From the NCBI RefSeq assembly GCF_028867935.1, contig NZ_JAPQNS010000017.1:62001-126000 (forward strand): a stretch of 64,000 nt of DNA, read 5' to 3'. Positions within the stretch are counted from its first letter, which is position 1. Every line of letters starts with the position of its first letter. The notes beneath the pieces are model-generated. The model saw only the letters and a program-made list of their open reading frames with translations. It did not search any database and had not been told where the DNA came from. The position numbers and the translations under genes are program-made. The stretch comes from Flavobacterium sp. SUN052. GTDB lineage: Bacteria > Bacteroidota > Bacteroidia > Flavobacteriales > Flavobacteriaceae. Positions 11,555 through 55,086 of this stretch are shown piece by piece.

Positions 11555-11642
11555 CACGGAGTTATGCAGAGACGCACGGAACTACACAAAGAAAATTAGA
11601 ATAAACTCTGTGTAACTCCGTGCGTCTCTGAGCAACTCCGTG
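11555..11642. repeat. Intergenic inverted repeat (ACGGAG type)
   Basis: Arms 11555-11592 and 11607-11642 are reverse complements at about 30 of 36 positions, around a 14-bp spacer. Each arm is itself made of related words (CACGGAGTTA, GACGCACGGA). The right arm ends 19 bp before the next start codon, so the hairpin would fall in that gene's leader. One of a set of seven such elements in this window. Confidence 0.85.
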
Positions 11643-11660
11643 GCTAAAAACTTTTATGCT

Positions 11661-14600
11661 ATGAAACCTATTCTACTACCTCTACTTCTACTCTCCCTCA
11701 CTGGCTTCGCGCAAACGCCCCCCATCCCCCTCAAGGGTGATGAACTGTTTGGGTCGTTACGGGCGCGGCACATAGGCCCGGCGCTTATGTCGGGGCGCAT
11801 CACCGATCTTGAAGGCCACCCTACCGATAACCGAATCATTTACGTTGGAACAGCAGGTGGGGGTGTTTGGAAAACCGGTGACGGTGGTGTTACCTATAAA
11901 CCCCTGTTTGATAAACACGCCCAGAGCATCGGAGCTGTAACCGTTGACCCTAAGCAACCTGACCAAGTAATTTGGGTAGGTACAGGCGAAACTTGGACCC
12001 GCAACTCGGTTTCGGTGGGCGATGGTATTTACCGGACTACCGACGGCGGACAAAACTGGACGAACCTCGGCCTTGAAAAATCGGAGCGAATCAGTTCCAT
12101 CAAAATTGATCCTACCAATACCAATACCGTGTATGTAGGTGTTATGGGCGCGTTGTGGTCGGCCAGTGCCGAGCGGGGGGTGTATAAAACAACCGATGGT
12201 GGCAAGACCTGGAACAAGATTTTCTTTGTAGACGATAACACGGGCTGCTCCGAATTGGTTATGGACCCCACCGACCCAAACACGCTCTATGCCTCATTTT
12301 GGGAATTCCGGCGCACAGCCTGGTCATTCAATTCGGGTGGGGCAAAGTCGGCCCTGTACAAAAGCACCGATGCGGGCAAAACCTGGAACAAAATCCACAA
12401 TGGATTTCCGAGTGGCCAGTTAGGGCGGATCGCGGTGGCAGTTGCTCCCTCGAATCCAAAACGGTTGTACGCCGTTATTGAGTCCGATAAAGCCGAAACT
12501 AAAGGTTTGTACCGGTCTGAAGATGCAGGGGCGAACTGGTCGCGTACCAACGGTGATTTTGAGCTGGCCGTGCGTCCCTTTTATTTCTCACGGATTGTAG
12601 TCGACCCTAAGAATCCGGGTATTCTCTGCAAAGCGGGCCTGAGTGGCTCTATCAGTCGCGATGGAGGTAAAACCTTCCAAACGCTGGGCTTCATGCACTC
12701 TGATATTCACGATTTTCATTTCGACCGGACGAATTCGAACATCATTTTTGCCGGAACCGATGGGGGCGTTTATCGCTCGTACGATGGCGGCAGTGTAATG
12801 GAACACGTAAAGGGGTTACCCGTTTCGCAGTTTTACCAAGTGGCGGTTGACAATGCCAAACCGTACAAAATTTATGGGGGTTTGCAGGATAATGGATCGT
12901 GGTATGGCCCTTCGGAAAGCCCCGGCGGCATTGAAAACCGCGACTGGTTTAGCGTCGGGCAAGGTGATGGCTTCCGGGTATATCCACACCCAACCAAAGG
13001 GAATATTGTGTATTCTGAAATGCAGGGAGCCGAATTCATCTGGCGGTACGACACCCAACGTCGGCAGGCCAAGATTATTAAACCCTTTGCTACAGCTACT
13101 GACCCCAAGCTCCGCTTCAACTGGAACGCAGCGCTGAACACTAGCCCCCACAAACCGGACCGGCTTTACGTGGGCAGTCAGTTTTTGCACCGTTCCGACG
13201 ATATGGGCGAAAGTTGGACCAAAATCTCCCCCGATCTCACGACCAACGATCCTGCCAAACAGCAACAGGAAAACTCTGGTGGCCTTAGCACCGACAACTC
13301 CGGTGCCGAAAATCACTGTACGATCTTTGCCGTAGCCGAGTCACCCCTGGACGAAAACATAATCTGGGTTGGCACTGACGATGGCAACGTACAGCTCACT
13401 ACCGATGGTGGTAAAACCTGGACAAACCTAGCAGCCAACGTTCCAAACCTGCCCAAAAACACCTGGGCTTATTTTCTGGAGCCAAGCCATTTCGACAAAA
13501 ATACCTGTTATGCGGTATTTGAGGGTCATTCGTCGGGTGATATGAGTACGTATGTATACAAAACCACCGACGCTGGTAAAACCTGGAAATCTATCGCTAC
13601 GCCTGATATAAAAGGATTTGCCCGACACATTCGTGAAGACCTGGTAAACCCGAATCTCCTGTTTTTGGGCACTGAATTTGGTCTGTTCGTGACAGTAGAT
13701 GGGGGGCAGAACTGGTCGCAGTTTAAAACCAACATGCCCTCAGTAGCCGTGCATTACATGGTCATTCAACCCGAAGAAAACGATCTGGTGATTGCTACCC
13801 ACGGACGCGGCATCATTATCATCGATGATATTAGCCCATTACGGCAGGTCAACAACGAAGTAGCAGCCAAAGATCTACACTTTTTCAAGGTGGAGCCAAC
13901 GGCCATGCGCGACGATGCCGGATTTTCGGAAGGAGGTGATGCGGGTGAATTTGTAGGTGACAACCCCAGCCGAACCGCCAAGATCAGCTATTACCTCAAA
14001 AACCGCCATACGTTTGGCAAAATGGCCCTCGAAATCTTCGATGAATCCGGTAAGAAAGTGGGCGACCTGGCACCTGGTAAATCAAAGGGAATAAATATTG
14101 TTGACTGGAACTATCGGCTGAAACCGCCCAAAGTAGCCGTTGGAAAAACACTGATGTTTGGTGGCCTTACCCAGCCTCGTTTGCCCGAAGGCAGCTATAC
14201 AGTGAAACTCACCAAAGGCAGTAATACCTACGAATCGGTAGTGACGCTCAAGGCAGATCCAAACAGTATTCATACAGTTGCTGACCGTAAGGAGCAATAC
14301 GACGTAACGATGAAACTGTACGATCTGTCGGAGCAGTTGGGATATTTGGTCGATCAAATGGAAGCCATGAGCAAAGCGGCTGATGAGCAACTCAAGAAAG
14401 ATGCTAAATACAAAAAGATCATTGATCCGCTCATCAAAGACCTCAACACACTAAAAGAGACCCTGGTTGTAACGAAAGGCGATAATTATGTTGGGTCAGC
14501 TGAACCGCAATTACGCGAGAAAATCGGATCACTCTACAGCGAAGTAGCCGGGTATTATGGCAAGCCATCGACCGCTCAACTGGAAAATTTGAGCGTGTTA

Positions 14601-14744
14601 TCAAAACGATTCGGAGAGGCACAGGCAAAATTTGAGACCATTAAAAACACTCGTTACAAAGTATTAGCAGAACGATTGGCCAAAGACAAACTGCCCGAAA
14701 TCACGCTCCGATCTTTTGAGGATTACAAGAAATCGGAGGGGTAG
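11661..14744 (+). CDS. Secreted sortilin/VPS10-type beta-propeller (BNR-repeat glycosyl-hydrolase-like) protein
   Basis: 1027 residues. A GTG lies 7 codons earlier, but the ATG at 11661 begins a signal peptide (MKPILLPLLLLSLTGFAQ). The body holds repeated Asp-box/BNR motifs, e.g. GGGVWKTGDGGVTYKPL, GIYRTTDGGQNWTNL, GVYKTTDGGKTWNKI, ALYKSTDAGKTW and VQLTTDGGKTWTNLA, the mark of a VPS10/sortilin-like ten-bladed propeller. The C-terminal 250 residues are helical and charged, with a small beta domain before them. Proteins of this type in Bacteroidota are annotated as glycosyl hydrolases, though no sialidase catalytic set is evident here. Likely exported; function unknown. Ends at a bidirectional terminator. 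Confidence 0.87.
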   Translation: MKPILLPLLLLSLTGFAQTPPIPLKGDELFGSLRARHIGPALMSGRITDLEGHPTDNRIIYVGTAGGGVWKTGDGGVTYKPLFDKHAQSIGAVTVDPKQPDQVIWVGTGETWTRNSVSVGDGIYRTTDGGQNWTNLGLEKSERISSIKIDPTNTNTVYVGVMGALWSASAERGVYKTTDGGKTWNKIFFVDDNTGCSELVMDPTDPNTLYASFWEFRRTAWSFNSGGAKSALYKSTDAGKTWNKIHNGFPSGQLGRIAVAVAPSNPKRLYAVIESDKAETKGLYRSEDAGANWSRTNGDFELAVRPFYFSRIVVDPKNPGILCKAGLSGSISRDGGKTFQTLGFMHSDIHDFHFDRTNSNIIFAGTDGGVYRSYDGGSVMEHVKGLPVSQFYQVAVDNAKPYKIYGGLQDNGSWYGPSESPGGIENRDWFSVGQGDGFRVYPHPTKGNIVYSEMQGAEFIWRYDTQRRQAKIIKPFATATDPKLRFNWNAALNTSPHKPDRLYVGSQFLHRSDDMGESWTKISPDLTTNDPAKQQQENSGGLSTDNSGAENHCTIFAVAESPLDENIIWVGTDDGNVQLTTDGGKTWTNLAANVPNLPKNTWAYFLEPSHFDKNTCYAVFEGHSSGDMSTYVYKTTDAGKTWKSIATPDIKGFARHIREDLVNPNLLFLGTEFGLFVTVDGGQNWSQFKTNMPSVAVHYMVIQPEENDLVIATHGRGIIIIDDISPLRQVNNEVAAKDLHFFKVEPTAMRDDAGFSEGGDAGEFVGDNPSRTAKISYYLKNRHTFGKMALEIFDESGKKVGDLAPGKSKGINIVDWNYRLKPPKVAVGKTLMFGGLTQPRLPEGSYTVKLTKGSNTYESVVTLKADPNSIHTVADRKEQYDVTMKLYDLSEQLGYLVDQMEAMSKAADEQLKKDAKYKKIIDPLIKDLNTLKETLVVTKGDNYVGSAEPQLREKIGSLYSEVAGYYGKPSTAQLENLSVLSKRFGEAQAKFETIKNTRYKVLAERLAKDKLPEITLRSFEDYKKSEG

Positions 14745-14773
14745 GCTTGATTTATACTGGGTTGAGTCGCATT

Positions 14774-14817
14774 AGAATGGTGGGGATATGTCAGTTCAGA
14801 CAAGCCCCCACCATTCT
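14774..14817. terminator. Bidirectional terminator between convergent genes
   Basis: AGAATGGTGGGG (14774-14785) pairs perfectly with CCCCACCATTCT (14806-14817) across a 20-bp loop. It lies between the stop codons of the convergent genes ending at 14744 and 14822. Confidence 0.75.
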
Positions 14818-14821
14818 GTTG

Positions 14822-16309: not shown

Positions 16310-16467
16310 GAATGCAGTTTGGTTTTACAAACCCCAAAGAACTTACCCTTTTTTTCGATATAAAATAGCCGATACCGGGTAGTTTTGATTAAAAATTTCC
16401 GCACTTCTTTAATCTGAATGAGGGAGTTTTTTAATGTTGGGTGGGGTAAAATGCCGCGTCTCTACCC
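16310..16467. other. Upstream region of the 14822-16309 gene
   Basis: Part of a ~310-bp gene-free stretch that continues to 16618. No Bacteroidota promoter consensus is clear. The region is AT-rich near 16350-16410, which is compatible with a promoter for the minus-strand gene. Confidence 0.4.
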
Positions 16468-16511
16468 AAAAAAGGCCCGGCCCAATTTCCAATGAGAAAC
16501 CGGGCCGGGCC
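16468..16511 (-). terminator. Rho-independent terminator of the LuxR-type regulator gene
   Basis: On the plus strand AAAAAA (16468-16473) precedes GGCCCGGCCC (16474-16483) and GGGCCGGGCC (16502-16511). Read on the minus strand this is a perfect 10-bp GC stem followed by a T run, about 108 bp after the regulator's stop. Confidence 0.85.
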
Positions 16512-16618
16512 AGCGAGTAATGATTTGTGCAATGGTCTTTTGTGGAAACAAGCTCGTTTTTGCCGTAGGTTAGGCCATTCACAAAGGTTCGGTATTGGGT
16601 AAAAGTGCTTGATTGCTA

Positions 16619-21591: not shown

Positions 21592-22506
21592 TTAATACGT
21601 TTTTGTCATATCAGCCGGGATGGCCAAAATAACAGTACCGGTGTTATAGTTTTCTGATACCAGCTTATTGACAGCCTCTTGCTCTACCGATGAAATAGTT
21701 AAAATCCGCAGCGACGGTTGTTTTTGATGGAGATACCAGCTTATTCCTTCAAAGTTCTTAGAGTGGTAATCGCCATTGTAGTGCAGCAAAATTTTACCTT
21801 CCTGCCAGTTCTGTAAAATGCTGTTTGCCATAGTCGCATCTTTTATGGCTTGAGCACGAGCAAAATTCGCAGCCCTATCTGAAGGTTCACTCTTTGGACC
21901 CGTGCTTCCGGTACTTGCCGACCCGCCATGCGATGGATCTGCCATCATCTCCATCATTCCTTTATAGCCCGGCAATGTTAAATCGACCGTCAACGGCAAT
22001 GGAGCCAGCCATTGTTTGTTTGCCACTGTGTCGAGCGCAGCCAGGCCTTGCCGAGATACCAAAGTCGCGTATCGACGCGGCACGTTTGCGGCTACAAAAG
22101 GAATTTTGTTGTTCCGTGCAAAATCCACCAAGGGACGATAATCGGTATCGTAATTGGGCCACAACCGGGCCTGTTTCGCAAATTCTTTATCGGTAATGCT
22201 GCCCTGCACATAGCTGCTCAAAGCCGCCTGATTGTCGGTCTCGAACATTTCGGCCGCCAATACCAACTGGCTTTTTTTCTGAGCATACAAATCTTTTGTA
22301 AGCTGTAATTCAAGCCAGTGACAAATGGGATTATTGTGCAGCTCTCCAAACAGCACCACATCGGCCTCGGCAGCCTGTTTCAGCAGTTTGGCGTAACTAA
22401 TGGCTTTCCCTTTCTGAGAATACAGTTGGTAGGCAGGCTGATCAGGCGTTAGATTAATGAATAATGCACAATGAATAATGAGTACTACCAAACGGACTAA
22501 TTTCAT
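21592..22506 (-). CDS. ChaN-like (haem-binding/TIKI-fold) secreted protein
   Basis: 304 residues. The core has the ChaN signature: VVLFGELHNNPICHWLE, then LAAEMFETDNQ, a central ARLWPNYDTDYRPLVDFA stretch, and the closing HYNGDYHSKNFEGISWYL. ChaN proteins are iron-regulated and some bind haem dimers. A gly/ser insert (PSHGGSASTGSTG) lies near residue 195. The N-terminus works as a signal peptide, but its hydrophobic core (LIIHCALFIN) is coded by one arm of an intergenic inverted repeat (22465-22544), which suggests an N-terminus remodelled by the repeat. The DUF1080 gene lies immediately upstream on the same strand. Confidence 0.85.
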   Translation of the reverse strand: MKLVRLVVLIIHCALFINLTPDQPAYQLYSQKGKAISYAKLLKQAAEADVVLFGELHNNPICHWLELQLTKDLYAQKKSQLVLAAEMFETDNQAALSSYVQGSITDKEFAKQARLWPNYDTDYRPLVDFARNNKIPFVAANVPRRYATLVSRQGLAALDTVANKQWLAPLPLTVDLTLPGYKGMMEMMADPSHGGSASTGSTGPKSEPSDRAANFARAQAIKDATMANSILQNWQEGKILLHYNGDYHSKNFEGISWYLHQKQPSLRILTISSVEQEAVNKLVSENYNTGTVILAIPADMTKTY

Positions 22507-22544
22507 AGGTTTTGTCGGGTGTTTTGCCCATTATTCATTGTGCA
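22465..22544. repeat. Inverted repeat (AATGAATAATG type) overlapping the ChaN-like start
   Basis: A 16-bp perfect arm pair, TGCACAATGAATAATG (22465-22480) and its complement (22529-22544), surrounds a 48-bp spacer that contains the ChaN-like start codon at 22504-22506. Related words (AATGAATAATG, AATGAACAAT) extend both arms. The left arm is inside coding sequence. Confidence 0.88.
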
Positions 22545-22566
22545 CTAGCGCCTTACTAATTGTTCA

Positions 22567-23346
22567 TTACAATTCCCGCACCCAAATATTACGGAAACCA
22601 ACCGGGTTGCCGTGATCCTGCAAAATGATTGGCCCTTTGGCCGCTACCTGCATTTTGGGGTAACCAATATACTCGGTGGTTCCTTTCACGGCCACGTGGT
22701 TCTGAACCAACACGCCGTTCAACAATACTGTTACGTAAGCAGGATCGATCATGATACCAGCTTTGCTGAAACGGGGAGCCGTGAAAACAATGTCGTAGGT
22801 CTGCCACTCACCAGGTTTGCGGCTAGGGTTCGCCAATGGAATAGCCTGTTTGTAGATCGAGCCAACCATGCCATTTACGTAAGTTGGGTTGTTGTAATTG
22901 TCGAGTACCTGCACCTCGTACCGGCCGTGCAAAAACACACCGCTATTACCCCGTCCCTGCCCGTTTCCTTCAACTTTTTCGGGCGTTTGAAACTCAATGT
23001 GTAGCTGCATATCACCAAAGTCTTGCTTGGTTTTGGCCGACGATGTTTTGCCTGAATACAACACGCCATCACGCACGATCCATTGAAGGGGGTCTGTGCT
23101 GTTTGTTGGGTTGTAGCCCTTGTTAGCTACCCAGGCGTCAGCATTTTTACCATCAAACAGCACAATTGCATCTGATGGAGGGGTCGTACCAGCTGTGTTG
23201 GCCGAGAACACGCCGGGCGTTACAACGGGAGGAACGGGCTCCCAAACTTCCGATGACTCAGGCGTTTGTTTTGAGGGTTGAACTTGAGCAAAAGCAAATC
23301 CTACGGCAGCCAGGCTTAGGAAAAGGGTTGATGTTGTCTTTTTCAT
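22567..23346 (-). CDS. DUF1080 family secreted protein (3-keto-glycoside hydrolase type)
   Basis: 259 residues from the ATG at 23346, chosen because a signal peptide follows (MKKTTSTLFLSLAAVGFAFAQ). The frame continues six codons further upstream. The single DUF1080 concanavalin-like domain shows IVLFDGKNADAWV, WIVRDGVLYSG, GDMQLHIEFQTP, NSGVFLHGRYEVQVLDNY, the KPGEWQTYDIVFTAPRF strand and the closing IILQDHGNPVGFRNIWVREL. Members act on 3-keto-sugars or bind glycans in the periplasm or outside. A second DUF1080 protein is encoded divergently at 23775 and is followed by a sugar-dehydrogenase-like cytochrome, so the three may form a keto-sugar pathway. Confidence 0.9.
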   Translation of the reverse strand: MKKTTSTLFLSLAAVGFAFAQVQPSKQTPESSEVWEPVPPVVTPGVFSANTAGTTPPSDAIVLFDGKNADAWVANKGYNPTNSTDPLQWIVRDGVLYSGKTSSAKTKQDFGDMQLHIEFQTPEKVEGNGQGRGNSGVFLHGRYEVQVLDNYNNPTYVNGMVGSIYKQAIPLANPSRKPGEWQTYDIVFTAPRFSKAGIMIDPAYVTVLLNGVLVQNHVAVKGTTEYIGYPKMQVAAKGPIILQDHGNPVGFRNIWVREL

Positions 23347-23466
23347 GAATTGGAAATAGGTCATTTAATTGTCAAAATTAACGCACAACAGCGGTTTTCC
23401 TTACAAAGACAACGAATCGTCCGGTCTATCTGTCGCGATTGTCACACAATGAAGGTATGAAGAAAA

Positions 23467-31227: not shown

Positions 31228-31998
31228 TTACCGGCTCACCGTTGCTGCTGGTTTCACGCTTGGTGCTTTCTTGTTGAAATCACCGCGAGCGAAGAATTTC
31301 TCGATGAAGCAATACATCAAAATAAAGAAGTACCGGCTACCCATCTCCTTAATCTTCAACTTTGATTCACCATACTTCCGGTTTGTCCAACTGTTAGGCA
31401 CCACTTCGTAGCTGTAGCCCCGAACCATGGCTTTCAGCGGCAACTCGATGGTAAGGTTGAAATGCGGAGAAAGAAATGGTTTTACGCCTTCAATAGTCTC
31501 CCGTTTATAGAGCTTGAACGCGTTGGTCGTATCGTTGTACTTGATGCCCATCACCATCTTCACAATGAAGTTGGCCACCCGGTTGATATACTTTTTCAAT
31601 TCGGGATAGTCGATCACTTTGCCACCTTTGCCCCACCGCGAGCCAAATACCGCATCGGTATCGGTCTCGAGCATTTTGTGGTAAAACTTAACCAGATCCT
31701 CAGGGTCGTCGGACATATCGGCCATAAAAACAGCTACGCAGTCGCCCGTGAAGCGTTCCAAACCATACCGAACAGCATAACCAAAGCCGTTTGGCCCCGG
31801 ATTCGTATAATAAACAAGCGTCGGAATCTCCGTTTTCAACGCTTCCAAAACGCCAGCGGTGTTGTCTTTCGAATTATCGTTTGTAACGCAGATTTCATGC
31901 GGAACCCCGTGTTTAGCCAGCGTTTGGTATAACGTTCTGAGCGTATGGGGAATCGATTCCTCTTCGTTGTAGGCCGGAATAACGACGCTGAGTTTCAT
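31228..31998 (-). CDS. Family 2 glycosyltransferase (dolichol-phosphate mannosyltransferase-like)
   Basis: 256 residues. GT-A fold with VVIPAYNEEESIPHTLRTLY, the donor-binding TNDNSKDNTAGVLEAL and the metal site VAVFMADMSDDPEDL. The YPELKKYINRVANFIVKMV and YGESKLKIKEMGSRYF stretches match the DPM1/polyprenyl-phosphate sugar transferase group. No membrane anchor is evident beyond one amphipathic region. Last gene of a minus-strand glycan cluster; overlaps the preceding GT2 gene by 4 bp (ATGA). It may charge a polyprenyl phosphate that feeds the GT-C enzyme encoded upstream. Confidence 0.9.
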   Translation of the reverse strand: MKLSVVIPAYNEEESIPHTLRTLYQTLAKHGVPHEICVTNDNSKDNTAGVLEALKTEIPTLVYYTNPGPNGFGYAVRYGLERFTGDCVAVFMADMSDDPEDLVKFYHKMLETDTDAVFGSRWGKGGKVIDYPELKKYINRVANFIVKMVMGIKYNDTTNAFKLYKRETIEGVKPFLSPHFNLTIELPLKAMVRGYSYEVVPNSWTNRKYGESKLKIKEMGSRYFFILMYCFIEKFFARGDFNKKAPSVKPAATVSR

Positions 31999-32951
31999 AG
32001 TTTGTAGGGCAATAACCTGATTGAACTGTACACCTTCCGAATTGGCGAGGGAACAACATAATCGCGAAATATATCTTTAACTATTCGCCCACTGGGTTGT
32101 GCCATATATACGTATTTGAGCGCGTAAAAAGCCCGGCGAAAATAGCTTTGCTCGTACTGTTTTGCGTCGAGCATCAATCGGTAATAACGAGCAATATTTT
32201 TACGAAGTACGCGGTCGTACTTGAAATCGAGTTCGCGGTTTATATCGCTGTACATCTGTATCCGGTTCCGCAAAAATCGCTCGTCCCACTCATAATCGTG
32301 GAAACTAGCGCCAGCGCGATTCTTCCGATACACCGACATAATATCAGGAATGTAGCCAATTGGCCCCATTTTAGCTTTCAGAATCAAGCGGGGAATATCA
32401 CCACTGCTCGATTCCCGGAACCACGCGGGATACTCTTTAATACTATTGCGGTATATGGTACTCGACGTGGCCATGAACCATATTTCCTGCTCACCCACAA
32501 GGTCGTCGAGGGTGTAGTACGTCTTCATGTCAGGCCCGTTGAGTATGTACGACGGCGAACCATCTTCGTAAATAACTTCAGCATTATGGAACACTGCCTG
32601 GCATTGTGGATTAGCATCCAGAAAATCGACCTGCTTTTGCAGCTTGGTTGGATTAGTCCAGTAATCGTCGCCATCCATCAATGCATAATATTCTCCTTTG
32701 GCGAGTTTGAGCGTTTCGAGGAAGTTGATTCCCCCGTTTTTGCCCATGTTACGCGGGTGCAGCACGCCAATTACTTTACCCGGATGCAATTGTTCATATT
32801 CCTGAATAATCTCCCGTGTACCATCCGACGAAAAATCATCCCCTACCAATATTTCAAATGGAAAGTTTGTCTCCTGAGCCAATGCACTATCGATGGCTTT
32901 ACGGATGAAGTTTTTCTGGTTGTACGTTATTATCGTGACGCTAACTTTCAT
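31995..32951 (-). CDS. Family 2 glycosyltransferase
   Basis: 318 residues. Typical GT2 N-terminus VTIITYNQKNFIRKAIDSAL, EILVGDDFSSDGTREIIQEY, and the DxD-type ALMDGDDYW. An acceptor-binding C-terminal half contains PAWFRESSSGDIPRLILKAK and a DYEWDERFLRNR helix. This is the form common in O-antigen and capsule loci of Bacteroidota. It is coupled by an ATGA overlap to the second GT2 gene downstream. Acceptor and donor sugars cannot be told from sequence. Confidence 0.92.
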   Translation of the reverse strand: MKVSVTIITYNQKNFIRKAIDSALAQETNFPFEILVGDDFSSDGTREIIQEYEQLHPGKVIGVLHPRNMGKNGGINFLETLKLAKGEYYALMDGDDYWTNPTKLQKQVDFLDANPQCQAVFHNAEVIYEDGSPSYILNGPDMKTYYTLDDLVGEQEIWFMATSSTIYRNSIKEYPAWFRESSSGDIPRLILKAKMGPIGYIPDIMSVYRKNRAGASFHDYEWDERFLRNRIQMYSDINRELDFKYDRVLRKNIARYYRLMLDAKQYEQSYFRRAFYALKYVYMAQPSGRIVKDIFRDYVVPSPIRKVYSSIRLLPYKL

Positions 32952-32956
32952 AGGTA

Positions 32957-33047
32957 GGAGGAAGGGGAGAAAGATAAGAAAAGAGGAGAGTCACTACCAG
33001 CAGTTGGTTAATTCGTTCGCTCCTTTCTTACCTTTCTCCTTTCTCTC
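32957..33047. repeat. Inverted repeat (purine/pyrimidine, GGAGAAAG type)
   Basis: Arm 32957-32990 is almost pure purine (GGAGGAAGGGGAGAAAGATA...) and arm 33020-33047 is its near complement (pyrimidine). The spacer is about 29 bp. The element fills the gap between the possible dioxygenase gene and the GT2 gene and touches the stop codon at 33049. Confidence 0.75.
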
Positions 33048-33048: not shown

Positions 33049-33852
33049 TTACAAAACTGCTTGTTTGATTTGTTCTTTCCAGCCTTGTGGCTCTTTGTCC
33101 TCAGCCGGTGTTCCCCAAGGGTCGTAAAAGGGTAAAATAGCGACCCAGCGACCACGTGGATTGTCCCAGCTAAACCGGTCGGCAAAGCTTGATGGCGATA
33201 CCCAGTGAGGCAGGTCGTAACGGAACAAAATCATGTCTCCAACGTCCTGAAAGCCCTCTGTTTCAACAATATGATCGTTGATTACGTAGCCTGTTCCTCC
33301 TGAATGGTATTCTTTCCCATATTGATTAAGGGCTAGAATAGTACCAACTTTTTGCGGGTTGAGCGGGTGCCAATGCCGTCCGAAGAAGCTGCCACCTAGG
33401 GGGTAATGGGTTACTTGCGGGTGGAAGTATGGCTGTCCTTTACGAATTCCAAACTCTTCGTCATTGCCTGTTAATCCATTCCAGAACTTCCGGACCGGGT
33501 TGAACACGGATAATAGAGCCTCACGAGTTGGCTCGTCGAGGTCCAGAATGGCATCGAATGTATGGTCGTGAAAGAGTTGCGGAGCTTTCTGAATCTTGGC
33601 AATGTGCAACCGTTGCTTATGCTGGTTATTGTCGAATGAATCGGGGGCTTCAGCAAGGGGCGTCTTCTCTGCCCAGGCTCGCGTAGCGTCGATCATGTTT
33701 TGCAACATATCGGCGGGAATACCCGTTTTCACGATCACGATGTTCGGCTCGTTCACCAACCGCATCACTTCTTCTACCGGAATTTCTGGGACAATTTGCC
33801 CGTTTTTGAACTCCGCGTTTACTTTGATCAAGTATTTTGCTACTTCCTGCAT
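33049..33852 (-). CDS. Possible Fe(II)/2-oxoglutarate-type oxygenase, family not firmly recognised
   Basis: 267 residues, no signal peptide. Central features are YPLGGSFFGRHWHPLNPQK, a GGTGYVINDHI strand, GDMILFRYDLPHWVSP and RGRWVAILPFYDPWG. The closely spaced His, the later His in DLPHW, and the final Arg on a beta strand look like the jelly-roll metal/2OG site of phytanoyl-like hydroxylases. The canonical HxD pair is not exact, so the call is tentative. Sits inside a glycan cluster and could modify a sugar or lipid; alternatively it is a cupin-like unknown. The upstream gap to the propeller gene is 128 bp with nothing notable. Confidence 0.6.
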   Translation of the reverse strand: MQEVAKYLIKVNAEFKNGQIVPEIPVEEVMRLVNEPNIVIVKTGIPADMLQNMIDATRAWAEKTPLAEAPDSFDNNQHKQRLHIAKIQKAPQLFHDHTFDAILDLDEPTREALLSVFNPVRKFWNGLTGNDEEFGIRKGQPYFHPQVTHYPLGGSFFGRHWHPLNPQKVGTILALNQYGKEYHSGGTGYVINDHIVETEGFQDVGDMILFRYDLPHWVSPSSFADRFSWDNPRGRWVAILPFYDPWGTPAEDKEPQGWKEQIKQAVL

Positions 33853-43296: not shown

Positions 43297-43319
43297 AGAA
43301 GAATTGGCACGCGGATGAC

Positions 43320-43394
43320 ACGGATTAAGCGGATTTACACGGATTTTTTGTTTACATCGATTTTTAAAAATCCGTGTAAATCCGCTTAATCCGT
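43320..43394. repeat. Perfect 29-bp inverted repeat between eboE and eboF
   Basis: Arms 43320-43348 and 43366-43394 are exact reverse complements around a 17-bp loop. Weaker pairing continues out to about 43304 and 43410. Each arm holds tandem variants of the word CGGATTTACACGGATT. The right arm enters the eboE stop codon (43394-43396). As RNA it would be a very strong hairpin within the ebo operon. Confidence 0.93.
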
Positions 43395-44617
43395 CAAATC
43401 TGTGTTCCAATCATTATTACCCAGTTCATTTCACGCTCAATCGAATCAACAATACCTAATTTCAGGCCTTCTGGCAGCACTTCCCAGGTATATGTTTCCA
43501 CTTCCATCTGATCAGTAAAGGGTTGTTCAGCCTGTAGGCGCAACACCTCCCGGATTTCATCCTGAGTGGACTGTAACAGGCCGTAATCCTCTACGAAAAT
43601 AGGTACGTGAAAATGCGACCGCCACTCTACATGGTCGTCAGTTAATACCGCTAATGCATTGGGAAGATCATTAAACCGGAGAAGTTCGCCAGTTTGCGTA
43701 CGGGCTACCACCTGATGCAAATAAGTAGGTTCGTTAAACCGCTCAAACGCCTTTTTTACTTCGTCGCGCTGGACGGCATCGGCAGGGAATTCAGCTTTCA
43801 GGGCTGCGCTAATCTGAATTTTCCCAACGCGCAGATCATGCGCCTGGAGCTTCGAAATGACATCAGTTGGTCGTTCATAGCCCACCGCAAAATGACACAC
43901 ATCGTAACAAAGCTGCACGTGCTGTCGGAGAGCTTCTCCCGCTTCTTCGGCGTTTAGACCGGCCACTGCTGCCAGATGCTGTTTACCCATGGGCAACAGG
44001 TAATCCGTAAACCAGGCCACAAACTCATCGGCCGTTTCGAGCAGGCCGTCGGGTTCAGGTTCAAGGTCGAGGTGCATGGTCAAGCCGGTTTCCTGTCTAA
44101 GCGCTACCAACTCGGCCACAACGGCTAAAACATTCCAGGTAGTATCTGCAAATACAGTATTGCGAACATCAGGATCATTCCAGTCAAACCAGTAGCGATA
44201 CGACAAAGGTGAGGTCGAAATGCCCGGTTCTGTTGTCAACGGTCCTGTTTGCAGATCAGCTAGCAATCGGAACAGCCGGTTGGTATAATCAACGCGATTG
44301 GTGGTGGTCCAGTCGGGTTTGTGAACGTCGTCTTTCACCCGTACGTGGTGGAAACCGCCATACGGAAACCCGTTCATAGTAAACACGTAGCAATCGGTAT
44401 CGATAAGCCACTGGCTCAGTTCGGTCACGTTCTCACCAACGCTTAACTCTTCACTGGCGATGTTAGACAGACGCAACCCCAACCCAAACGGTTCGTTGGG
44501 CGACAGGCGGCTTTTCAGATCGGGAACAGCCTGTTTCAGGGCTGCAAAATGATCGGCCCAATGCTCACCAGCGTGAATGTTGGTACAATAGCCAAGGTGG
44601 CCAAGGGAAGTTTTCAT
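43394..44617 (-). CDS. eboE: EboE metabolite traffic protein (TIM-barrel, xylose-isomerase-like)
   Basis: 407 residues from the ATG at 44617, which starts the family block MKTSLGHLGYCTNIHAGEHW. TIM-barrel landmarks: LGLRLSNIASEEL, YVFTMNGFPYGGFHH, GISTSPLSYRYWF, TMHLDLEPEPDGLLETADEF, VQLCYDVCHFAVGYE, KIQISAAL and FHVPIFVEDYGLLQ. This pattern of acidic and His residues recalls a divalent-metal isomerase site, but no reaction is known for EboE. Fourth gene of the ebo set. The last codons run into an inverted repeat. Confidence 0.88.
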   Translation of the reverse strand: MKTSLGHLGYCTNIHAGEHWADHFAALKQAVPDLKSRLSPNEPFGLGLRLSNIASEELSVGENVTELSQWLIDTDCYVFTMNGFPYGGFHHVRVKDDVHKPDWTTTNRVDYTNRLFRLLADLQTGPLTTEPGISTSPLSYRYWFDWNDPDVRNTVFADTTWNVLAVVAELVALRQETGLTMHLDLEPEPDGLLETADEFVAWFTDYLLPMGKQHLAAVAGLNAEEAGEALRQHVQLCYDVCHFAVGYERPTDVISKLQAHDLRVGKIQISAALKAEFPADAVQRDEVKKAFERFNEPTYLHQVVARTQTGELLRFNDLPNALAVLTDDHVEWRSHFHVPIFVEDYGLLQSTQDEIREVLRLQAEQPFTDQMEVETYTWEVLPEGLKLGIVDSIEREMNWVIMIGTQI

Positions 44618-44618
44618 A

Positions 44619-44731
44619 CAGTGAACAGCTAACAATTAACAGCCAACAGTGATCGGCGATCAGTGAACAATCAATACGTATCAATCGTCGCAACTATTAG
44701 CTAATCACTGTTGGCTGCTGGCTGTCCACTG
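44619..44731. repeat. Inverted repeat (AACAG/CAACAGTGA type) between eboD and eboE
   Basis: Left arm 44619-44652 (CAGTGAACAGCTAAC...CAACAGTGAT) and right arm 44704-44731 are near complements; a 7-bp indel separates them. Words such as AACAGC, TTAACAGCCAACAG and CAGTGAACA recur. The right arm is coding: it gives the last residues of EboD (SVDSQQPTVIS). Confidence 0.82.
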
Positions 44732-45863
44732 ATAACTGTAAAATTGCCTGCCGAATCAAACTCTCATCCATATCGTGAACCTCAACGCCTTCACCAATGC
44801 CTTTGAGCAACAAAATGGTGAGCTGACCACCGAGGTGTTCGCGGAACTCGGTTAAGCCACGCAACACGCCTACGCTATCATCGCGGTCGAGCGCAGAGTC
44901 GTAAAGCAAGAAACCAAGCGTTTGAAGCAGGTTCAAAATGCGGTTAAGGTCGGTTTCTGACAGAAGGCCGAGCAAGTGAGCATACTGGCAATCGAGCGCC
45001 ATGCCGATGGCCACAGCTTCGCCATGGCGCAGCGAAAAATCGGTAAGCTGTTCAAGTTTATGAGCGCTCCAATGACCGAAATCGAGCGGACGCGATGAAC
45101 CCTGCTCAAATGGATCACCACTGGCAATATGTTGCAGATGGAGGTCGGCACAGCGATAAATAAGGTATTGCATAGCGGCCCCATCGCGGTTGGCAAGCGC
45201 TTCGGCATTAGCTTCGAGCCAGTCGAAAAAGGCAGGATCTTTAATGAGTGCTACTTTCACGGCTTCGGACATACCCGCCCGCCAGTCACGAATGTCCAGC
45301 GTGCGCAGAAACCGGAAATCGTTGAAAACAGCCGCCGGAGGGGCAAATGTGCCGAGGAAATTTTTCTTACCCCGGTAGTTCACCCCATTCTTTACCCCAA
45401 TCCCCGAATCGTTCTGTGACAAAACCGTTGTCGGAATGCGAATATGGCGTATACCCCGGTGCGAAATAGCAGCGGCATAACCGACTAAATCCAACACTGA
45501 TCCTCCTCCAATACCCACCACATAAGCGTGCCGGTCAACACCATGTTTATCAACGGCATCAACAATGCGTTCAACTAAGGCTGGGTCGTTCTTGGCGGGT
45601 TCTCCACCGGTAACAATCAGCAGATCAGAGATCAATTCGACATTCGCTTTCTGGGCAAAGTAATCCTGAATCTGACCAGGGAGTTCGGGAAAACAGCCGA
45701 CGACACCCTCATCGATCACGAAGAGCAGCTTTTTAGGGTTCTCTTGCGTGCTTTGTCCAGCCAGGAAATCGGCCAGCAAGGTATTATGCGCATCAAACAG
45801 ACCGTCGGTGAAGCTGATGTTGTAAGAAAACCTAACGCTGAATGATTGATTAAGTTGATTCAT
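44697..45863 (-). CDS. eboD: EboD, 3-dehydroquinate synthase-like
   Basis: 388 residues from the ATG at 45863 (a TTG six codons upstream is less likely). NAD-binding and active-site blocks of the dehydroquinate synthase fold: VGIGGGSVLDLVGYAAAISH, RIPTTVLSQNDSGIGVKNGV, FGHWSAHKLEQL and FSLRHGEAVAIGMALD, with the two zinc-ligand His present. EboD enzymes belong to the sugar-phosphate cyclase superfamily and are probably distinct from AroB. The C-terminal ~11 residues derive from an inverted repeat. A 160-bp gap separates it from eboC and holds weak hairpins (GCAGCAA/TTGCTGC; GCAC/GTGC). Confidence 0.87.
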   Translation of the reverse strand: MNQLNQSFSVRFSYNISFTDGLFDAHNTLLADFLAGQSTQENPKKLLFVIDEGVVGCFPELPGQIQDYFAQKANVELISDLLIVTGGEPAKNDPALVERIVDAVDKHGVDRHAYVVGIGGGSVLDLVGYAAAISHRGIRHIRIPTTVLSQNDSGIGVKNGVNYRGKKNFLGTFAPPAAVFNDFRFLRTLDIRDWRAGMSEAVKVALIKDPAFFDWLEANAEALANRDGAAMQYLIYRCADLHLQHIASGDPFEQGSSRPLDFGHWSAHKLEQLTDFSLRHGEAVAIGMALDCQYAHLLGLLSETDLNRILNLLQTLGFLLYDSALDRDDSVGVLRGLTEFREHLGGQLTILLLKGIGEGVEVHDMDESLIRQAILQLSVDSQQPTVIS

Positions 45864-46023
45864 GTTTAATTTTTCGTGCAAAGGCGCAGCAATTCATTCG
45901 AAAATCAAACGATAGCTGCATAACGTTGCTGCTTTGTTGGGTATTATTAAAAAAGCACGCAGTGCGTTTATTCTCTCTACATGCTGATGAAGTAATTATT
46001 ACTCAAAGATACAAAGTGCAAGG

Positions 46024-47840: not shown

Positions 47841-47959
47841 GTCATTTATCGTTATTCAGAGTCATTCATGGTCATCAGGCAATCATCAGATAGTCATTGC
47901 TATTTATTGTTAAAAGCAATTTGTGACTACTAGTGATTATGAATGACTACTTAATGACC
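47841..47959. repeat. Inverted repeat (GTCATT type) upstream of eboB
   Basis: The left part (47841-47899) consists of repeated GTCATT-like words (GTCATTTATC, GTCATTCATG, TAGTCATTGC). The right part (47914-47959) is their reverse complement (AAGCAAT, GTGACTACTAG, GAATGACTAC, TTAATGACC). Paired segments include GTCATTCAT with ATGAATGAC. The right arm encodes the last residues of the TVP38 protein (RSLSSHS). Confidence 0.75.
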
Positions 47960-48611: not shown

Positions 48612-48646
48612 AATTGTGCGGCCAGTGGACCTGGCCTGACCACCCA

Positions 48647-49894: not shown

Positions 49895-49906
49895 AGTCAA
49901 AACTTT

Positions 49907-49997
49907 AACGGCGAAGGCGCAAGGGTTTCGCAACGTACGCCAGGAAATACAGGTAAGCCCTTTGTGCACATTACGAAATCTTTGCGCCTTCGCGGTT
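49907..49997. repeat. Inverted repeat (GGCGAAGGCGC type) upstream of the TlpA-like gene
   Basis: Arms 49907-49940 and 49964-49997 are complements at about 26 of 34 positions around a 23-bp spacer. The conserved core is GCGAAGGCGCAA with TTGCGCCTTCGC. It sits in the divergent gap before rsmH and would fold into a hairpin ahead of both genes. Confidence 0.82.
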
Positions 49998-50014
49998 CAA
50001 TAACACCGGGCCGT

Positions 50015-50046
50015 TTTGTTAAGTTTGTAACGGCTGACTATTTCGT
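50015..50046 (+). promoter_or_regulatory. Candidate promoter of the rsmH-mraY operon
   Basis: TTTG at 50015-50018, a 20-bp spacer, and TATTTCGT at 50039-50046 (near TAnnTTTG). The rsmH ATG is 22 bp downstream. No mraZ gene or MraZ-type box array is seen. Confidence 0.5.
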
Positions 50047-50067
50047 TTTGGTTCCGCCCTATTTTGG

Positions 50068-50985
50068 ATGACAACAAGCTACCACGATCCTGTTTTATTG
50101 ACTGAATGCCTCGACGCGCTAAACATCAAACCCGGTGGCACGTATGTAGACGTAACTTTTGGCGGGGGAGGCCACAGCCGGGCCATTCTGGAACGACTTG
50201 GCCCGGGGTCAACCGGAAAGCTACTGGCCTTTGATCAGGATGCTGATGCCCGCGCCAATGCCGAAGCGATCAACGATCCACGCCTGACATTTATCCCAGC
50301 AAATTTTCGTAATTTGAAACGCTTCCTGCGGCTTTATGGCGTGAAGCAAGTCGACGGAATACTAGCTGATCTTGGCATTTCATCCCATCAGATCGACACA
50401 CCCGAACGTGGCTTTGCAACCCGGTTTGATGCCGATTTAGACATGCGGATGGATCAGCAAGCCGCTACTTCGGCTAAAGAAGTAGTGAATAACGCAACAG
50501 AGCAGGATTTGCACCGAATTTTGGGCATGTATGGGGAAATTACGAACGCCCGCACCGTAGCAACGGCTATCGTTTCGGCCCGGGCGAACCGACCGATCCG
50601 CACCATTAACGACTTAAAAACGGCTCTGCAACGGTTTGCGCCACGGGGAAAGGAAAACAAATTTTTCGCGCAGGTTTTTCAGGCCATAAGAATTGAGGTA
50701 AACGAGGAGTTGAAAGTGTTGGAGGAGTTTCTGGAGCAAACACCAGAAGTACTCACCTCCGGTGGTCGATTAGTGGTTATGAGTTATCACTCGCTCGAAG
50801 ATCGATTGGTAAAGAATTACATAAACAAAGGGAAGTTTCACGGCGAAGTCGACAAAGACCTTTACGGTAATGAGTTAAAACCACTTCAGGCAATAACCCG
50901 AAAACCTATTGAGGCATCGGACGAGGAAGTAAGTCGCAACCCCAGAGCACGCAGCGCTAAATTGAGAGTAGCAGAGAAAGTGTAA
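50068..50985 (+). CDS. rsmH: 16S rRNA (cytosine-1402-N4) methyltransferase RsmH
   Basis: 305 residues, full length. SAM-binding motif VDVTFGGGGHSRAILERLG, HDPVLLTECLDAL start, GILADLGISSHQIDTPERGF, RFDADLDMRM, and SYHSLEDRLVKNYI near the C-terminus. Methylates N4 of C1402 in 16S rRNA. As usual it heads the division/cell-wall cluster and is followed after 2 bp by ftsL. Normally mraZ precedes it; here a divergent TlpA-like gene does. Confidence 0.96.
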   Translation: MTTSYHDPVLLTECLDALNIKPGGTYVDVTFGGGGHSRAILERLGPGSTGKLLAFDQDADARANAEAINDPRLTFIPANFRNLKRFLRLYGVKQVDGILADLGISSHQIDTPERGFATRFDADLDMRMDQQAATSAKEVVNNATEQDLHRILGMYGEITNARTVATAIVSARANRPIRTINDLKTALQRFAPRGKENKFFAQVFQAIRIEVNEELKVLEEFLEQTPEVLTSGGRLVVMSYHSLEDRLVKNYINKGKFHGEVDKDLYGNELKPLQAITRKPIEASDEEVSRNPRARSAKLRVAEKV

Positions 50986-50987
50986 TC

Positions 50988-51377
50988 ATGGCAAAAAATA
51001 CGTTTCGAACCCCAAAAACAGTAGCTCGGCAAAAGCGGAAAAACCGCTTGACGGTCTGGGTCAATGACGTGATTGGTCTTGATCGGTTGTTTGGTGAGAA
51101 CAATGCCTGGCCCATTCGTAATATCGACCGGATCTTGTGGATCACGTTTCTGCTCATTATTTACATTGGCCTGACCCATAATGCCGAGCGGCTTGTGCGC
51201 CGAACGCAGCGTACCCGAACCGAAGTTGATGAACTTCGCGCTCAATACACCACGCTGCAAGCCAAGTTTATGAAAAGCGGCAAACAGTCTGAGCTAAGCA
51301 AACGCATGGCCCCACTGGGTCTAACCGATAGCCAAACACCACCCCGAAAACTCGTTGTGAAGCCCGATGACTATTAA
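50988..51377 (+). CDS. ftsL: FtsL-like division protein
   Basis: 129 residues. One membrane helix (ILWITFLLIIYIGLTH, about residues 47-62) after a basic cytoplasmic N-terminus (TVARQKRKNRLTVWV), then a heptad-like periplasmic coiled coil (TRTRTEVDELRAQYTTLQAK). This topology and the position between rsmH and ftsI identify the FtsL family of Bacteroidota, which with FtsB and FtsQ activates FtsWI. The 3' end overlaps ftsI by 11 bp. Confidence 0.85.
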   Translation: MAKNTFRTPKTVARQKRKNRLTVWVNDVIGLDRLFGENNAWPIRNIDRILWITFLLIIYIGLTHNAERLVRRTQRTRTEVDELRAQYTTLQAKFMKSGKQSELSKRMAPLGLTDSQTPPRKLVVKPDDY

Positions 51378-53487: not shown

Positions 53488-53512
53488 GCCAATACGGCTT
53501 TACCTTTGCCCT

Positions 53513-54991
53513 ATGCAACTTTCCAGTCTCCTCTATAAAGTCCCGCTCGAAGCCACAGCGGGCAGCATGGATACCGACATTTCGCATCTCACGATGGACT
53601 CACGCCGGGTTACTCCGGGTAGTCTGTTCATTGCTGTTCGCGGCACCTTGACCGATGGCCACGACTATATTGCCAAAGCGATTGAATCGGGGGCTTCGGC
53701 CATTTTGTGCGAGATCATGCCCGATTCAGTACCCGAGAATGTGGCGTTTGTACAAGTAAAAGAATCAGCGCGTGCAATGGGGTTGGTAGCGGCAAATTTC
53801 TACGGCCACCCCTCCAGGAAACTCCGCCTTGTGGGCGTAACCGGCACCAACGGCAAAACTTCAGTGGCTACTCTGCTGTTTCGACTGTTCCGGTCGCTAG
53901 GCTATCGATGCGGGTTACTTTCAACCGTACAAAACCAGATCGACGACGCCGTGATTCCGGCCACGCATACCACTCCGGATGCGATCACCGCCAACGAATT
54001 ATTGGTTCAGATGGGTCAACATGGCTGTACGCACGTGTTTATGGAAGTGAGCTCGCACGCTGTGGTGCAGGAACGAATTGCCGGACTGCACTTTGCGGGG
54101 GGCATTTTCACCAATATCACCCACGACCACCTCGACTTTCACGGGACGTTTGATAATTACATCAAAGCAAAAAAGGGCTTCTTCGATCAGTTGCCGCGCG
54201 CGGCTTTCGCGCTTACCAATGCCGACGATAAACGGGGCCCTGTAATGCTCCAGAATACCCTTGCCCGTAAGGAAAGCTACTCGTTGCAAACACTGGGCAC
54301 ATTCAAAGGCAAGATTCTGGCTGATGGTCTTTTTGGCCTGGAAATGGACGTTGACGACAGGCATGTCTGGTTTAAGCTCATCGGGCGGTTCAATGCGTAC
54401 AATTTATTGGCGGTTTATGGGGCAGCCGTGTTACTCGGCGAAGATCCTGAAGATGTTTTGACGCAACTCTCAGCGTTGTTACCTCCGCCGGGCCGCTTCG
54501 AACAGATCATTTCTAACGACCGCGTAGTGGGCATTGTTGATTATGCTCACACTCCAGATGCCTTGCAAAACGTGCTCGAAACCATTGCCGAGTTCAGTCA
54601 GGAGGGCGAACTGGGCCAACTTCCCCAAGTCATTACAGTAGTTGGCTGCGGAGGCAACCGCGACGCTGCCAAGCGACCGCTTATGGCTGGTATCGCCTGT
54701 AAGTTTAGTACCCACGTCATCCTTACGTCTGACAACCCCCGCAATGAAGACCCGATGGCCATTCTGGAGCAAATGCAGGCAGGTGTCCCTCCTATCGACT
54801 TCAAAAAAACGTTGACTATTGAGGATCGTCGGGAAGCTATTCAGCGGGCGGTTTCGATGGCTAAACCTCACGATATTATCCTGATTGCAGGCAAAGGCCA
54901 TGAGGCATACCAGGAAATTAAAGGCGTAAAATACGACTTTGATGATCGGGCAGTCCTGCGGGATGCTTTCTCTAACCGGGGAAAAGCGTAA
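53513..54991 (+). CDS. murE: UDP-MurNAc-L-Ala-D-Glu ligase MurE (meso-DAP type)
   Basis: 492 residues, complete Mur ligase. N-terminal domain with TMDSRRVTPGSLFIAVRG, ATP-loop VTGTNGKTSVATL (Lys115), EVSSHAVVQERI, NITHDHLDFHGTF, DYAHTPDAL, and the amino-acid-selecting D407-NPR motif in TSDNPRNEDP, which indicates meso-diaminopimelate. Adds the third residue of the stem peptide in the cytoplasm. Followed by a tandem-word inverted repeat and mraY. Confidence 0.96.
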   Translation: MQLSSLLYKVPLEATAGSMDTDISHLTMDSRRVTPGSLFIAVRGTLTDGHDYIAKAIESGASAILCEIMPDSVPENVAFVQVKESARAMGLVAANFYGHPSRKLRLVGVTGTNGKTSVATLLFRLFRSLGYRCGLLSTVQNQIDDAVIPATHTTPDAITANELLVQMGQHGCTHVFMEVSSHAVVQERIAGLHFAGGIFTNITHDHLDFHGTFDNYIKAKKGFFDQLPRAAFALTNADDKRGPVMLQNTLARKESYSLQTLGTFKGKILADGLFGLEMDVDDRHVWFKLIGRFNAYNLLAVYGAAVLLGEDPEDVLTQLSALLPPPGRFEQIISNDRVVGIVDYAHTPDALQNVLETIAEFSQEGELGQLPQVITVVGCGGNRDAAKRPLMAGIACKFSTHVILTSDNPRNEDPMAILEQMQAGVPPIDFKKTLTIEDRREAIQRAVSMAKPHDIILIAGKGHEAYQEIKGVKYDFDDRAVLRDAFSNRGKA

Positions 54992-54998
54992 CTTTGGG

Positions 54999-55086
54999 GT
55001 GAAAGAGTGAAAGAGTGAAAGAGCGAAAGGGTGAAAACTCGGGCGCGAGTCGCTCTTTCACTCTTTCACTCTTTCGCTCTTTCGCT
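54999..55086. repeat. Inverted repeat made of 8-bp tandem units between murE and mraY
   Basis: Left arm is GTGAAAGA repeated three times plus the variants GCGAAAGG and GTGAAAAC. The right arm is the complement (TCTTTCAC twice, TCTTTCGC twice). The short loop CTCGGGCGCGAG is self-complementary. It fills almost the whole murE-mraY gap, ending 3 bp before the mraY start. Confidence 0.92.

Follow-up and report, generated by a model that had tools for sequence, protein, structure and literature searches.

How a genome comes to carry long inverted repeats of the same build but unlike sequence in one intergenic gap after another is the question raised by a 64,000-nucleotide stretch (the window) of the assembly labelled Flavobacterium sp. 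SUN052. A sequence-only reading of the window had reported such foldbacks in seven gaps and a looser one in an eighth, had taken their unrelated sequences as an argument against a copied mobile element, and had proposed either a local process such as snap-back replication or template switching, or selection for hairpins between genes. We compared these hairpins, named below by their first nucleotide in the window (Table 1), with further sequence of their own genome, and with the genomes of Spirosoma sp. 48-14 (G067, L011) and Spirosoma panaciterrae (G064, L008). Our results suggest that the hairpins are probably non-autonomous dispersed palindromic elements, of several families per genome, and that they are copied at the DNA level in a way that overwrites resident elements and seeds new sites.

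It is evident from a scan of 1.344 Mb of the own genome, the window included, that such structures far exceed chance. Outside open reading frames (ORFs), which were called mechanically throughout, 153, 113, 88, 67 and 44 inverted repeats reach scores of at least 14, 16, 18, 20 and 24, against means of 0.4, 0, 0, 0 and 0 in 10 shuffles of the sequence; within ORFs the numbers are 23, 17, 15, 12 and 7, against 2.2, 0.2, 0.1, 0 and 0. In these scans of long segments, errors of the scanner could matter solely at the segment ends. That shuffled sequence might give similar arms at the same rate is not what was found (113 against a mean of 0.0 at a score of 16), and chance is ruled out by shuffling as the source of seven of the eight window sites. 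The eighth, 47841, already described as looser, does not exceed chance by its ungapped score. The arms and loops of these seven, given at first as 16-38 bp and 12-50 bp, measure 19-46 nt and 14-50 nt, and the CGGATT site, placed at 43320-43394, is real and longer than stated. Among the 130 own-genome inverted repeats with a score of at least 16, 95 have a loop of at least 8 nt; the shorter loops include terminators. When the own genome and the two Spirosoma genomes are taken together (loop at least 8, n=187; hereafter the three genomes), the median foldback length is 81 bp, with a 10-90% range of 57-112. A period of 6-10 nt of at least 60% was found in 58 of 183 arms (same genomes and loops, arm at least 18) against 4.2% of shuffled arms, most often a period of 8 (30 arms) or 7 (19 arms), so the description of most arms as degenerate tandem words was too strong. 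Hairpins were picked by folding, and the arm statistics are therefore conditional on folding.

Many of these hairpins have relatives elsewhere in the same genome. BLAST searches of the 1.344 Mb located relatives of 11555 at 1 place, of 43303 at about 15, of 44617 at 7 and of 54999 at about 19, whereas five shuffled queries per window feature gave no match there. The single relative of 11555 is full-length (70% identity, E 0.002), the seven of 44617 are partial, and 10 matches of 54999 cover at least 80% of its length; in this count of 10 and in the counts of whole-genome matches below, both strands of each palindrome are included. Over the whole own genome the CGGATT hairpin 43303 gave 67 matches, several of them near end-to-end (from query base 2-9 to 107-113 of 113). 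Thirty of the 67 matches became loci, and these yielded 15 distinct hairpins, among them that of the window. In an alignment of 12 of them, from which three that are broken or short were omitted, 15 of 46 pairs had changed on both sides; 27 such cells were counted against 9.9 in shuffles, none of 500 being as high. Further pair types are less clear (34 against 30.1, reached in 21 of 500 shuffles). Pairing falls from 90.8% to 31-43% when the structures are slid.

Similarly, one AATGATTG hairpin of S. panaciterrae (G064 C57:21852) has full-length relatives of 96% identity in G067 and of 93, 89 and 89% in G064. Each of these four aligns with the 93-base query from base 3 to 91-92, across the loop and between unrelated flanks, and the query gave 84-85 matches in each of the two genomes. 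Since matches of this family mostly stop at the hairpin ends, it has flush ends like those of miniature inverted-repeat transposable elements, the one family for which this was seen. Judged by eye, six of eight AATGATTG loci share both ends, two of the six being one site in two species, and in the others the ends are shifted. The GAAAGAG, CGGATT and AATGATTG families are thus many-copy dispersed extragenic palindromes. These results show that at least part of the hairpin set is dispersed, with CGGATT and AATGATTG copies matching end to end. The list of 130 has recurring words (GCGGAT/ACGGATT, GTCATT, AACAGTGA, GTGAAAGAG, GGATTTCGGATTT, CGCAAAGG, CACAGAG and AGGATTACAGGATT), and also holds some conventional palindromes like repetitive extragenic palindromic (REP) sequences. 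For 93 own-genome foldbacks, the partner arm has a mean identity of 92.6% and the best match elsewhere in the 1.344 Mb covers 83.4%; the closest match of an arm is its partner in 52, a copy of at least 90% exists elsewhere in 26, and 15 lie in between. Unrelated sequence at every locus therefore holds among the eight sites but not genome-wide, where five or more of the seven solid hairpins contradict it.

The order of the words within the hairpins leads to the same view. A hairpin W-loop-W' reads in the same order on both strands, and which word comes first is thus a property of the element. The pattern GTGAAAGAG-loop-CTCTTTCAC has 186 matches in 13 of 15 genomes, with 17 matches in the own genome (overlapping matches counted in both), and the opposite order has none in the same 15 genomes. 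For other words, counts of the same and the contrary order in the three genomes (local data) are 8/0 for CAGTGA, 7/0 for AATGATTG, 8/0 for GAATGAG, 10/2 for GTCATT, 13/4 for CGGATT and 16/3 for GGATTT. GCGAAGG (5/3) and GGGGCA (1/3) show no such lean. Some contrary cases may stem from other palindromes with the complement inside them. Such strict polarity fits better with copying of an ancestral element than with independent local writing, which should give both orders. The exact two-armed word pattern of hairpin 22462 occurs at 2 further places in the own genome, at 19 in G067 and at 11 in G073, and in 9 of the 15 genomes altogether. The two-armed GTCATT pattern with fixed spacing, probably too strict, found nothing in the 15 genomes. 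The two-armed GAAAGAG pattern was found in 3 of 296 genomes of the assigned phylum, the own genome included, a sample built around a doubtful taxonomic label.

Orthologous sites were followed between 400 kb of G067 and 377 kb of G064, which are largely syntenic and about 86% identical. Of 52 G067 foldbacks (score at least 16, loop at least 8), 48 could be anchored by their flanks, and 31 have an inverted repeat with a score of at least 14 in the orthologous gap; in the reverse direction 33 of 40 G064 foldbacks were anchored and 28 kept a hairpin. Classes were assigned automatically by identity over the whole element. Among 21 tandem-word hairpins of G067, 7 are kept at 75% or more, 8 are kept below 70%, 2 face an empty or shortened gap, 3 are weak or lost and 1 is of another kind. 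For the 31 other G067 foldbacks, the kept hairpins divide into 4 with at least 75% identity, 10 with less than 70% and 1 in the intermediate range; a further 6 sites are empty or shortened, 4 are weak, 2 show large changes and 4 could not be anchored. From the G064 side, the 15 tandem-word hairpins fall into 4 with at least 75% identity, 6 with less than 70%, 3 in the intermediate range, 1 empty site and 1 that could not be anchored, and the 25 others into 6, 6, 0 and 2 of the first four classes, with 2 weak, 3 with large changes and 6 unanchored. Five of the eight G067 hairpins kept below 70% are strongly changed, with arms at 50-64%. At G067 115263 a AAAGAGTG hairpin stands where G064 has AATGATTG, and at 331299 the exchange is reversed; further exchanged sites are 235474, 293946 and 179201. 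The boundaries are similar by eye, and the lengths at the five sites are 87/91, 92/83, 89/90, 91/102 and 93/90. Some of the cases without words (292720, 308415, 272161) are different palindromes in one gap and not an exchange at one site. The idea that hairpin structure is kept in orthologous gaps while sequence changes is thus true of some sites, but 7 of 21 tandem-word hairpins are simply conserved at 75% or more.

The two arms and the loop change together. In 28 orthologous hairpins the flanks are 85.6% identical, the arms 75.5% and the loops 60.0%. Among 693 pairs, 71 double changes stay Watson-Crick, against 11.6 expected if the arms changed independently, and the Watson-Crick share of double changes is 71 of 90, compared with 107 of 394 in a slid control. 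When the loci are split at a loop identity of 65%, the 17 with a changed loop hold 64 pair-preserving changes (11.8 expected), and the 11 with a conserved loop hold 7 (1.2 expected) beside 39 one-sided changes. Arm identity and loop identity are correlated (rho 0.48, p = 0.011, n = 27; 308415, which has no aligned loop, was omitted). Replacement of whole elements is favoured because 64 of the 71 co-changes lie at loci with a changed loop; these results point to whole-element exchange as the main process, with arm-by-arm correction the weaker one.

The alternative that survives best is that each hairpin is written in place, by snap-back synthesis or by correction of quasipalindromes, in which one arm is the template for the other, with slippage creating and homogenising the tandem words and no need for dispersal. 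The excess of matched changes at the 11 loop-conserved loci gives modest support to strictly local arm-to-arm rewriting. In line with it, the orthologous hairpins L254 and L259 share a loop and their arms differ by matched changes (by eye); the loops at the sites of G067 257120 and 29479 are cut to 3 and 2 nt, in G064 only, by longer and (nearly) perfect arms; and exchanged words are related and in register. However, the same words recur across numerous loci and genomes, with GAAAGAG in one polarity only, end-to-end homologues include the loop, and loops change along with arms. The 39 one-sided changes at loop-conserved loci, against 7 matched ones, indicate that correction is slow. We therefore regard purely local writing as unlikely.

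Ordinary REP or REPIN elements moved by REP-associated tyrosine transposases (RAYTs, of the Y1 type) were considered next. The same genomes do carry Y1_Tnp genes between related palindromes, and REP-like families are present in the foldback list. Judged by eye, related palindromes lie on both sides of the Y1 gene at least at one locus of the own genome (L240, C12), one of G067 (L242, C1) and two of G062 (L243 and L246); the palindrome is GTACGGTGGATTTGTAATCCGCC at L240 and GTAACGCGGGTGGAAACCCGC at L242, the same on both sides, and both genomes have relatives of it scattered elsewhere. But the palindromes near Y1 genes belong to other families, for example GTACGGTGGATTTGTAATCCGCC and GTAACGCGGG, and among 20 Y1_Tnp loci in four genomes a word hairpin was met at one, about 1.4 kb from the gene match. 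Six loci have no inverted repeat with a score of at least 13 nearby. The tag that defines REP sequences, GTAG or CGTC at one end (PMC3733652), is likewise rare at the foot of tandem-word hairpins, where GTAG lies within a few nucleotides in 5 of 58 and CGTC in 0 of 58. These results suggest that the RAYT system serves conventional palindromes and not the word hairpins. On the Y1 loci and the tags, we reject it for the latter, for which it is quite improbable; it covers part of the list (the GTACGGTGG and GTAACGCGGG families).

The last alternative is that the hairpins are RNA elements, kept by compensatory mutation, that tune the processing or stability of messenger RNA between cistrons. Divergent gaps are indeed avoided: the 187 foldbacks lie in 12 divergent, 117 co-directional and 51 convergent gaps and 7 times in ORFs, when gaps of at least 60 bp number 203, 536 and 143 (odds ratio 0.19, p = 2e-10, each foldback treated as one gap). 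A hairpin is also kept at 31 of the 48 anchored sites, the arms covary, and the murE-mraY gap of Arsenicibacter (L017) has a GAAAGAG-type hairpin (score 15.5), as does the same gap in the window. However, arm mismatches on the transcribed strand in co-directional gaps of the three genomes are G-U in 89, A-C in 83 and other in 93 cases (p = 0.70; REP-like palindromes included), while 46 terminator-like hairpins from the same sequences show 26, 7 and 8 (p = 0.0013). Words change along with the loop. In six other Bacteroidota the murE-mraY gap has no hairpin in five and one of score 8 in the sixth; Pseudarcicella and Telluribacter have none. Rfam at gathering thresholds gave a single match in the window, a tRNA, and no known RNA family for the hairpins. 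We thus see no sign that the hairpins are kept as RNA; the RNA form of the proposed selection fails on these mismatches, and an RNA role has the least probability of all the alternatives.

Carriage by phages found no case, as the two-armed GAAAGAG pattern matched 0 stretches of the viral collection, and only one of 8 viral stretches matching a 20-nt CGGATT pattern has an inverted repeat with a score of at least 14 that bears the word in its arm. Three window hairpins searched against plasmids by BLAST matched 2, 3 and 0 records, all partially. Long CAGTGA/CAGTTA hairpins, of the word family of 44617-44740, are present on plasmids of Brasilonema (L250) and Nostoc (L251); of the two Nostoc hairpins, one has its arms in the reverse order and a loop of 109 nt. 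The words thus reach into Cyanobacteria.

Copying at the DNA level is favoured because the hairpin build is kept while the sequence changes, the arms change together, and the arms show no selection as RNA. To this extent the snap-back or template-switching idea is supported; it went too far in making each hairpin an independent invention. The elements would consist of an arm, a loop and the complementary arm, many of them marked by a degenerate word some 7-10 nt long. Their avoidance of divergent gaps, described above, counts in favour of this reading too. A stalled replication fork may switch template into another hairpin through shared words; alternatively, the single-stranded hairpin may be copied by some enzyme. 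Such copying would overwrite resident elements and seed new sites, and tolerance of the elements behind stop codons is the probable reason for their persistence. We also put forward, tentatively and with some doubt, that the chromosomes of this bacterial family sustain an active copying of sequence between hairpins, in which other word families of the genome overwrite fixed intergenic sites time after time, loop as well as arms, probably by template switching via shared words or a loop core, GGCTGACGCA. Hairpin cores contain a sequence like GCTGACGC more often than expected, and this sequence appears between arms of different words: GCTDACGC occurs in 8 of 92, 3 of 52 and 3 of 39 cores against 0.56, 0.18 and 0.21 expected, and a control 7-mer in 1, 0 and 0. 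This hints at exchange between families via the shared core. In 9-mers, own-genome loops share 31 pairs against 15.9 in shuffled loops (maximum 20), with no excess in G067 (2 against 1.0) or G064 (2 against 1.2, maximum 3). Cores like GGCTGACGCA, sometimes with TGCGTCAGCC, were also noticed inside arms of different word families in G061, G062, G064, G070 and the own genome.

Several observations weigh against copying and overwriting as set out here. No BLAST relative was found in 1.3 Mb of the own genome for 22462, 32957, 47841 or 49904. This is softened for 22462, whose word hairpin is found elsewhere in the genome, and 47841 merely shares its GTCATT word with other hairpins there. For 32957 and 49904 no relative is demonstrated in the own genome and they do not qualify there as dispersed palindromes. 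Hairpins with words resembling 49904 are present in both Spirosoma genomes. No target-site duplication is evident by eye at the eight AATGATTG loci, the species pair offering few empty sites, and at none of the 20 Y1_Tnp loci does a word hairpin adjoin the gene. Of the eight tandem-word hairpins kept below 70%, 374007 retains 90% of its arms and has changed in the loop, and 235474 and 247883 retain 74-76%. The exchanged octamers AAAGAGTG and AATGATTG differ at about two of eight positions, in register; by this comparison they are related words, and concerted change in place may have acted at the exchanged sites. Finally, the evidence for exchange comes from one species pair over about 0.4 Mb, with no outgroup, and the search for near copies of exchanged hairpins covered only one locus (G064 C57:21852).

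Table 1. The window and its hairpin sites. Positions are those of the window unless stated; the shuffle column gives how many of 1000 dinucleotide shuffles of the site match it; strands of ORFs are in brackets.
Feature	Position	Arms	Arm, loop (nt)	Shuffles	Setting
Window (G000:C9)	contig 62001-126000				genome of 8.1 Mb in 38 contigs
Foldback, ACGGAG/CACAGAG word	11555-11642	11555-11591, 11606-11642	37, 14	0/1000	co-directional ORFs 10788-11540 (+) and 11640-14744 (+), the latter's first possible start within the arm
Foldback, AATGAATAATG word	22462-22547	22462-22480, 22529-22547	19, 48	0/1000	co-directional ORFs 22567-23364 (-) and 21592-22506 (-), the latter's longest reading overlapping the hairpin
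Foldback, GGAGAAAG word	32957-33047	32966-32985, 33020-33039 (best)	20, 34	0/1000	co-directional ORFs 33049-33852 (-) and 31995-32951 (-)
Foldback, CGGATT word	43303-43411	43303-43348, 43366-43411	46, 17	0/1000	between co-directional minus-strand ORFs; 43394-43411 of the right arm encodes the last codons and stop of ORF 43394-44635
Foldback, AACAG/CAGTGA word	44617-44740	44617-44653, 44704-44740	37, 50	0/1000	overlaps the 3' end of a 3-dehydroquinate-synthase-like ORF 44697-45881 (-), whose last residues and stop are written by 44697-44740
GTCATT words on both strands, weak foldback	47841-47959		10 (best ungapped arm)	37/1000 (ungapped score)	
Foldback, GGCGAAGGCGC word	49904-50000	49904-49936, 49968-50000	33, 31	0/1000	divergent gap upstream of rsmH, 50068-50985 (+)
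Foldback, GTGAAAGAG (GAAAGAG) word	54999-55086	55001-55026, 55050-55075	26, 23	0/1000	fills the gap between murE, 53513-54991 (+), and mraY, 55089-56300 (+)

By protein similarity, the source genome is a Bacteroidota of the Spirosoma/Rudanella kind. The RsmH of the window is 92% identical to that of a Rudanella metagenome-assembled genome (MAG; L005), 86% to that of a Cytophagales MAG (L006) and 74-78% to those of Spirosoma and Spirosomataceae records (L007-L016), and its MurE and MraY are 80% and 88% identical to those of Arsenicibacter. The genomes grouped with it by genus label measure 1.8-5.9 Mb. The genus label looks wrong, because the best MurE matches in that group are mostly about 51-56% identical, against the 80% of Arsenicibacter MurE and the 92% of Rudanella RsmH. 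In the Cytophagales MAG, the gap orthologous to that at 43.3 kb holds a hairpin of another word instead (GAATGAGTGA / AATGAGTGAATGAGTGATTGAG). The counterparts of the gaps at 44.6, 47.8 and 49.9 kb can be aligned but have no hairpin, and the first of them is compact. Among nine relatives, L015 alone has an inverted repeat with a score of at least 10 upstream of rsmH, of a TGTATGATG-type word. The window also holds, at 58335-58376, a perfect 19-bp inverted repeat with a 4-nt loop, terminator-like and unlike the foldbacks.

The usual picture of dispersed palindromes in bacteria is one of insertion followed by decay, and the small dispersed repeats and short tandemly repeated repetitive (STRR) sequences of Cyanobacteria include short repeats, some hairpin-forming and some heptameric. 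The published systems below are compared as far as the available portions of their texts go, and some of the ground is already covered in print, namely paired tandem words in Geobacter, TAACTGA repeats in distant phyla and replacement at Nostoc P6b. In Geobacter metallireducens, paired tandem octamers and heptamers are described as putative binding sites of a global regulator such as IHF or HU (PMC2700814). Like some of our hairpins, they are degenerate tandem words of 7-8 nt that face the same words on the opposite strand at a variable distance, and the other strand of the class 2 consensus TCTCCGTS reads, on our comparison, as an ACGGAGA word like that of 11555 (PMC2700814). Also comparable is that the proBA gap of G. 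sulfurreducens is reported to have a different conserved sequence (PMC2700814). They differ in being read, as a hypothesis, as protein-binding sites, in belonging to another phylum, and in that no co-change of arms is described (PMC2700814). In the P6b region of the Nostoc tRNA-Leu intron, a stem-loop of repeat motifs for which seven-nucleotide units are mentioned, the repeat class has been replaced repeatedly at the same site, and replacement of the entire region was inferred (PMC4476775). That is a single intron locus in Cyanobacteria (PMC4476775), whereas several intergenic sites of Spirosoma are involved here. TAACTGA heptamers, found mostly between genes in Beggiatoaceae, Cyanobacteria and some Bacteroidetes, are close to the CAGTTA arms on our comparison; however, they are direct repeats, with 1 inverted among 170 sets, and in the principal genome of that study most of them precede a start codon by no more than a few nucleotides (PMC4679880). 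REP and REPIN sequences are likewise small, intergenic, dispersed palindromes of high copy number (PMC3116915, PMC8266576, PMC3733652), from which the word hairpins differ in that no Y1 link was found, about a third of their arms are tandem words, and they change at a kept site. In the portions of the literature at hand, we found no description of intergenic tandem-word hairpins exchanged in place at many sites with co-changing arms and no G-U preference.

Within a divergence of roughly 14%, then, some sites have retained the place and form of the hairpin with different arms and a different loop. These hairpins also serve as a caution that covarying intergenic hairpins are not necessarily structured RNA, as they covary without G-U preference. 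If confirmed, they would give access to hairpin-driven template switching, or to the copying of hairpins, as it occurs naturally in bacteria, and could unite the Geobacter octamers, the class replacement at Nostoc P6b and the heptamers of distant phyla. Should fixed sites indeed be overwritten by other families, a hairpin site would serve the whole genome as a landing pad and would not be a signal of a particular gene, and the words that these genomes share with Cyanobacteria and Geobacter would point to the same process in several phyla.

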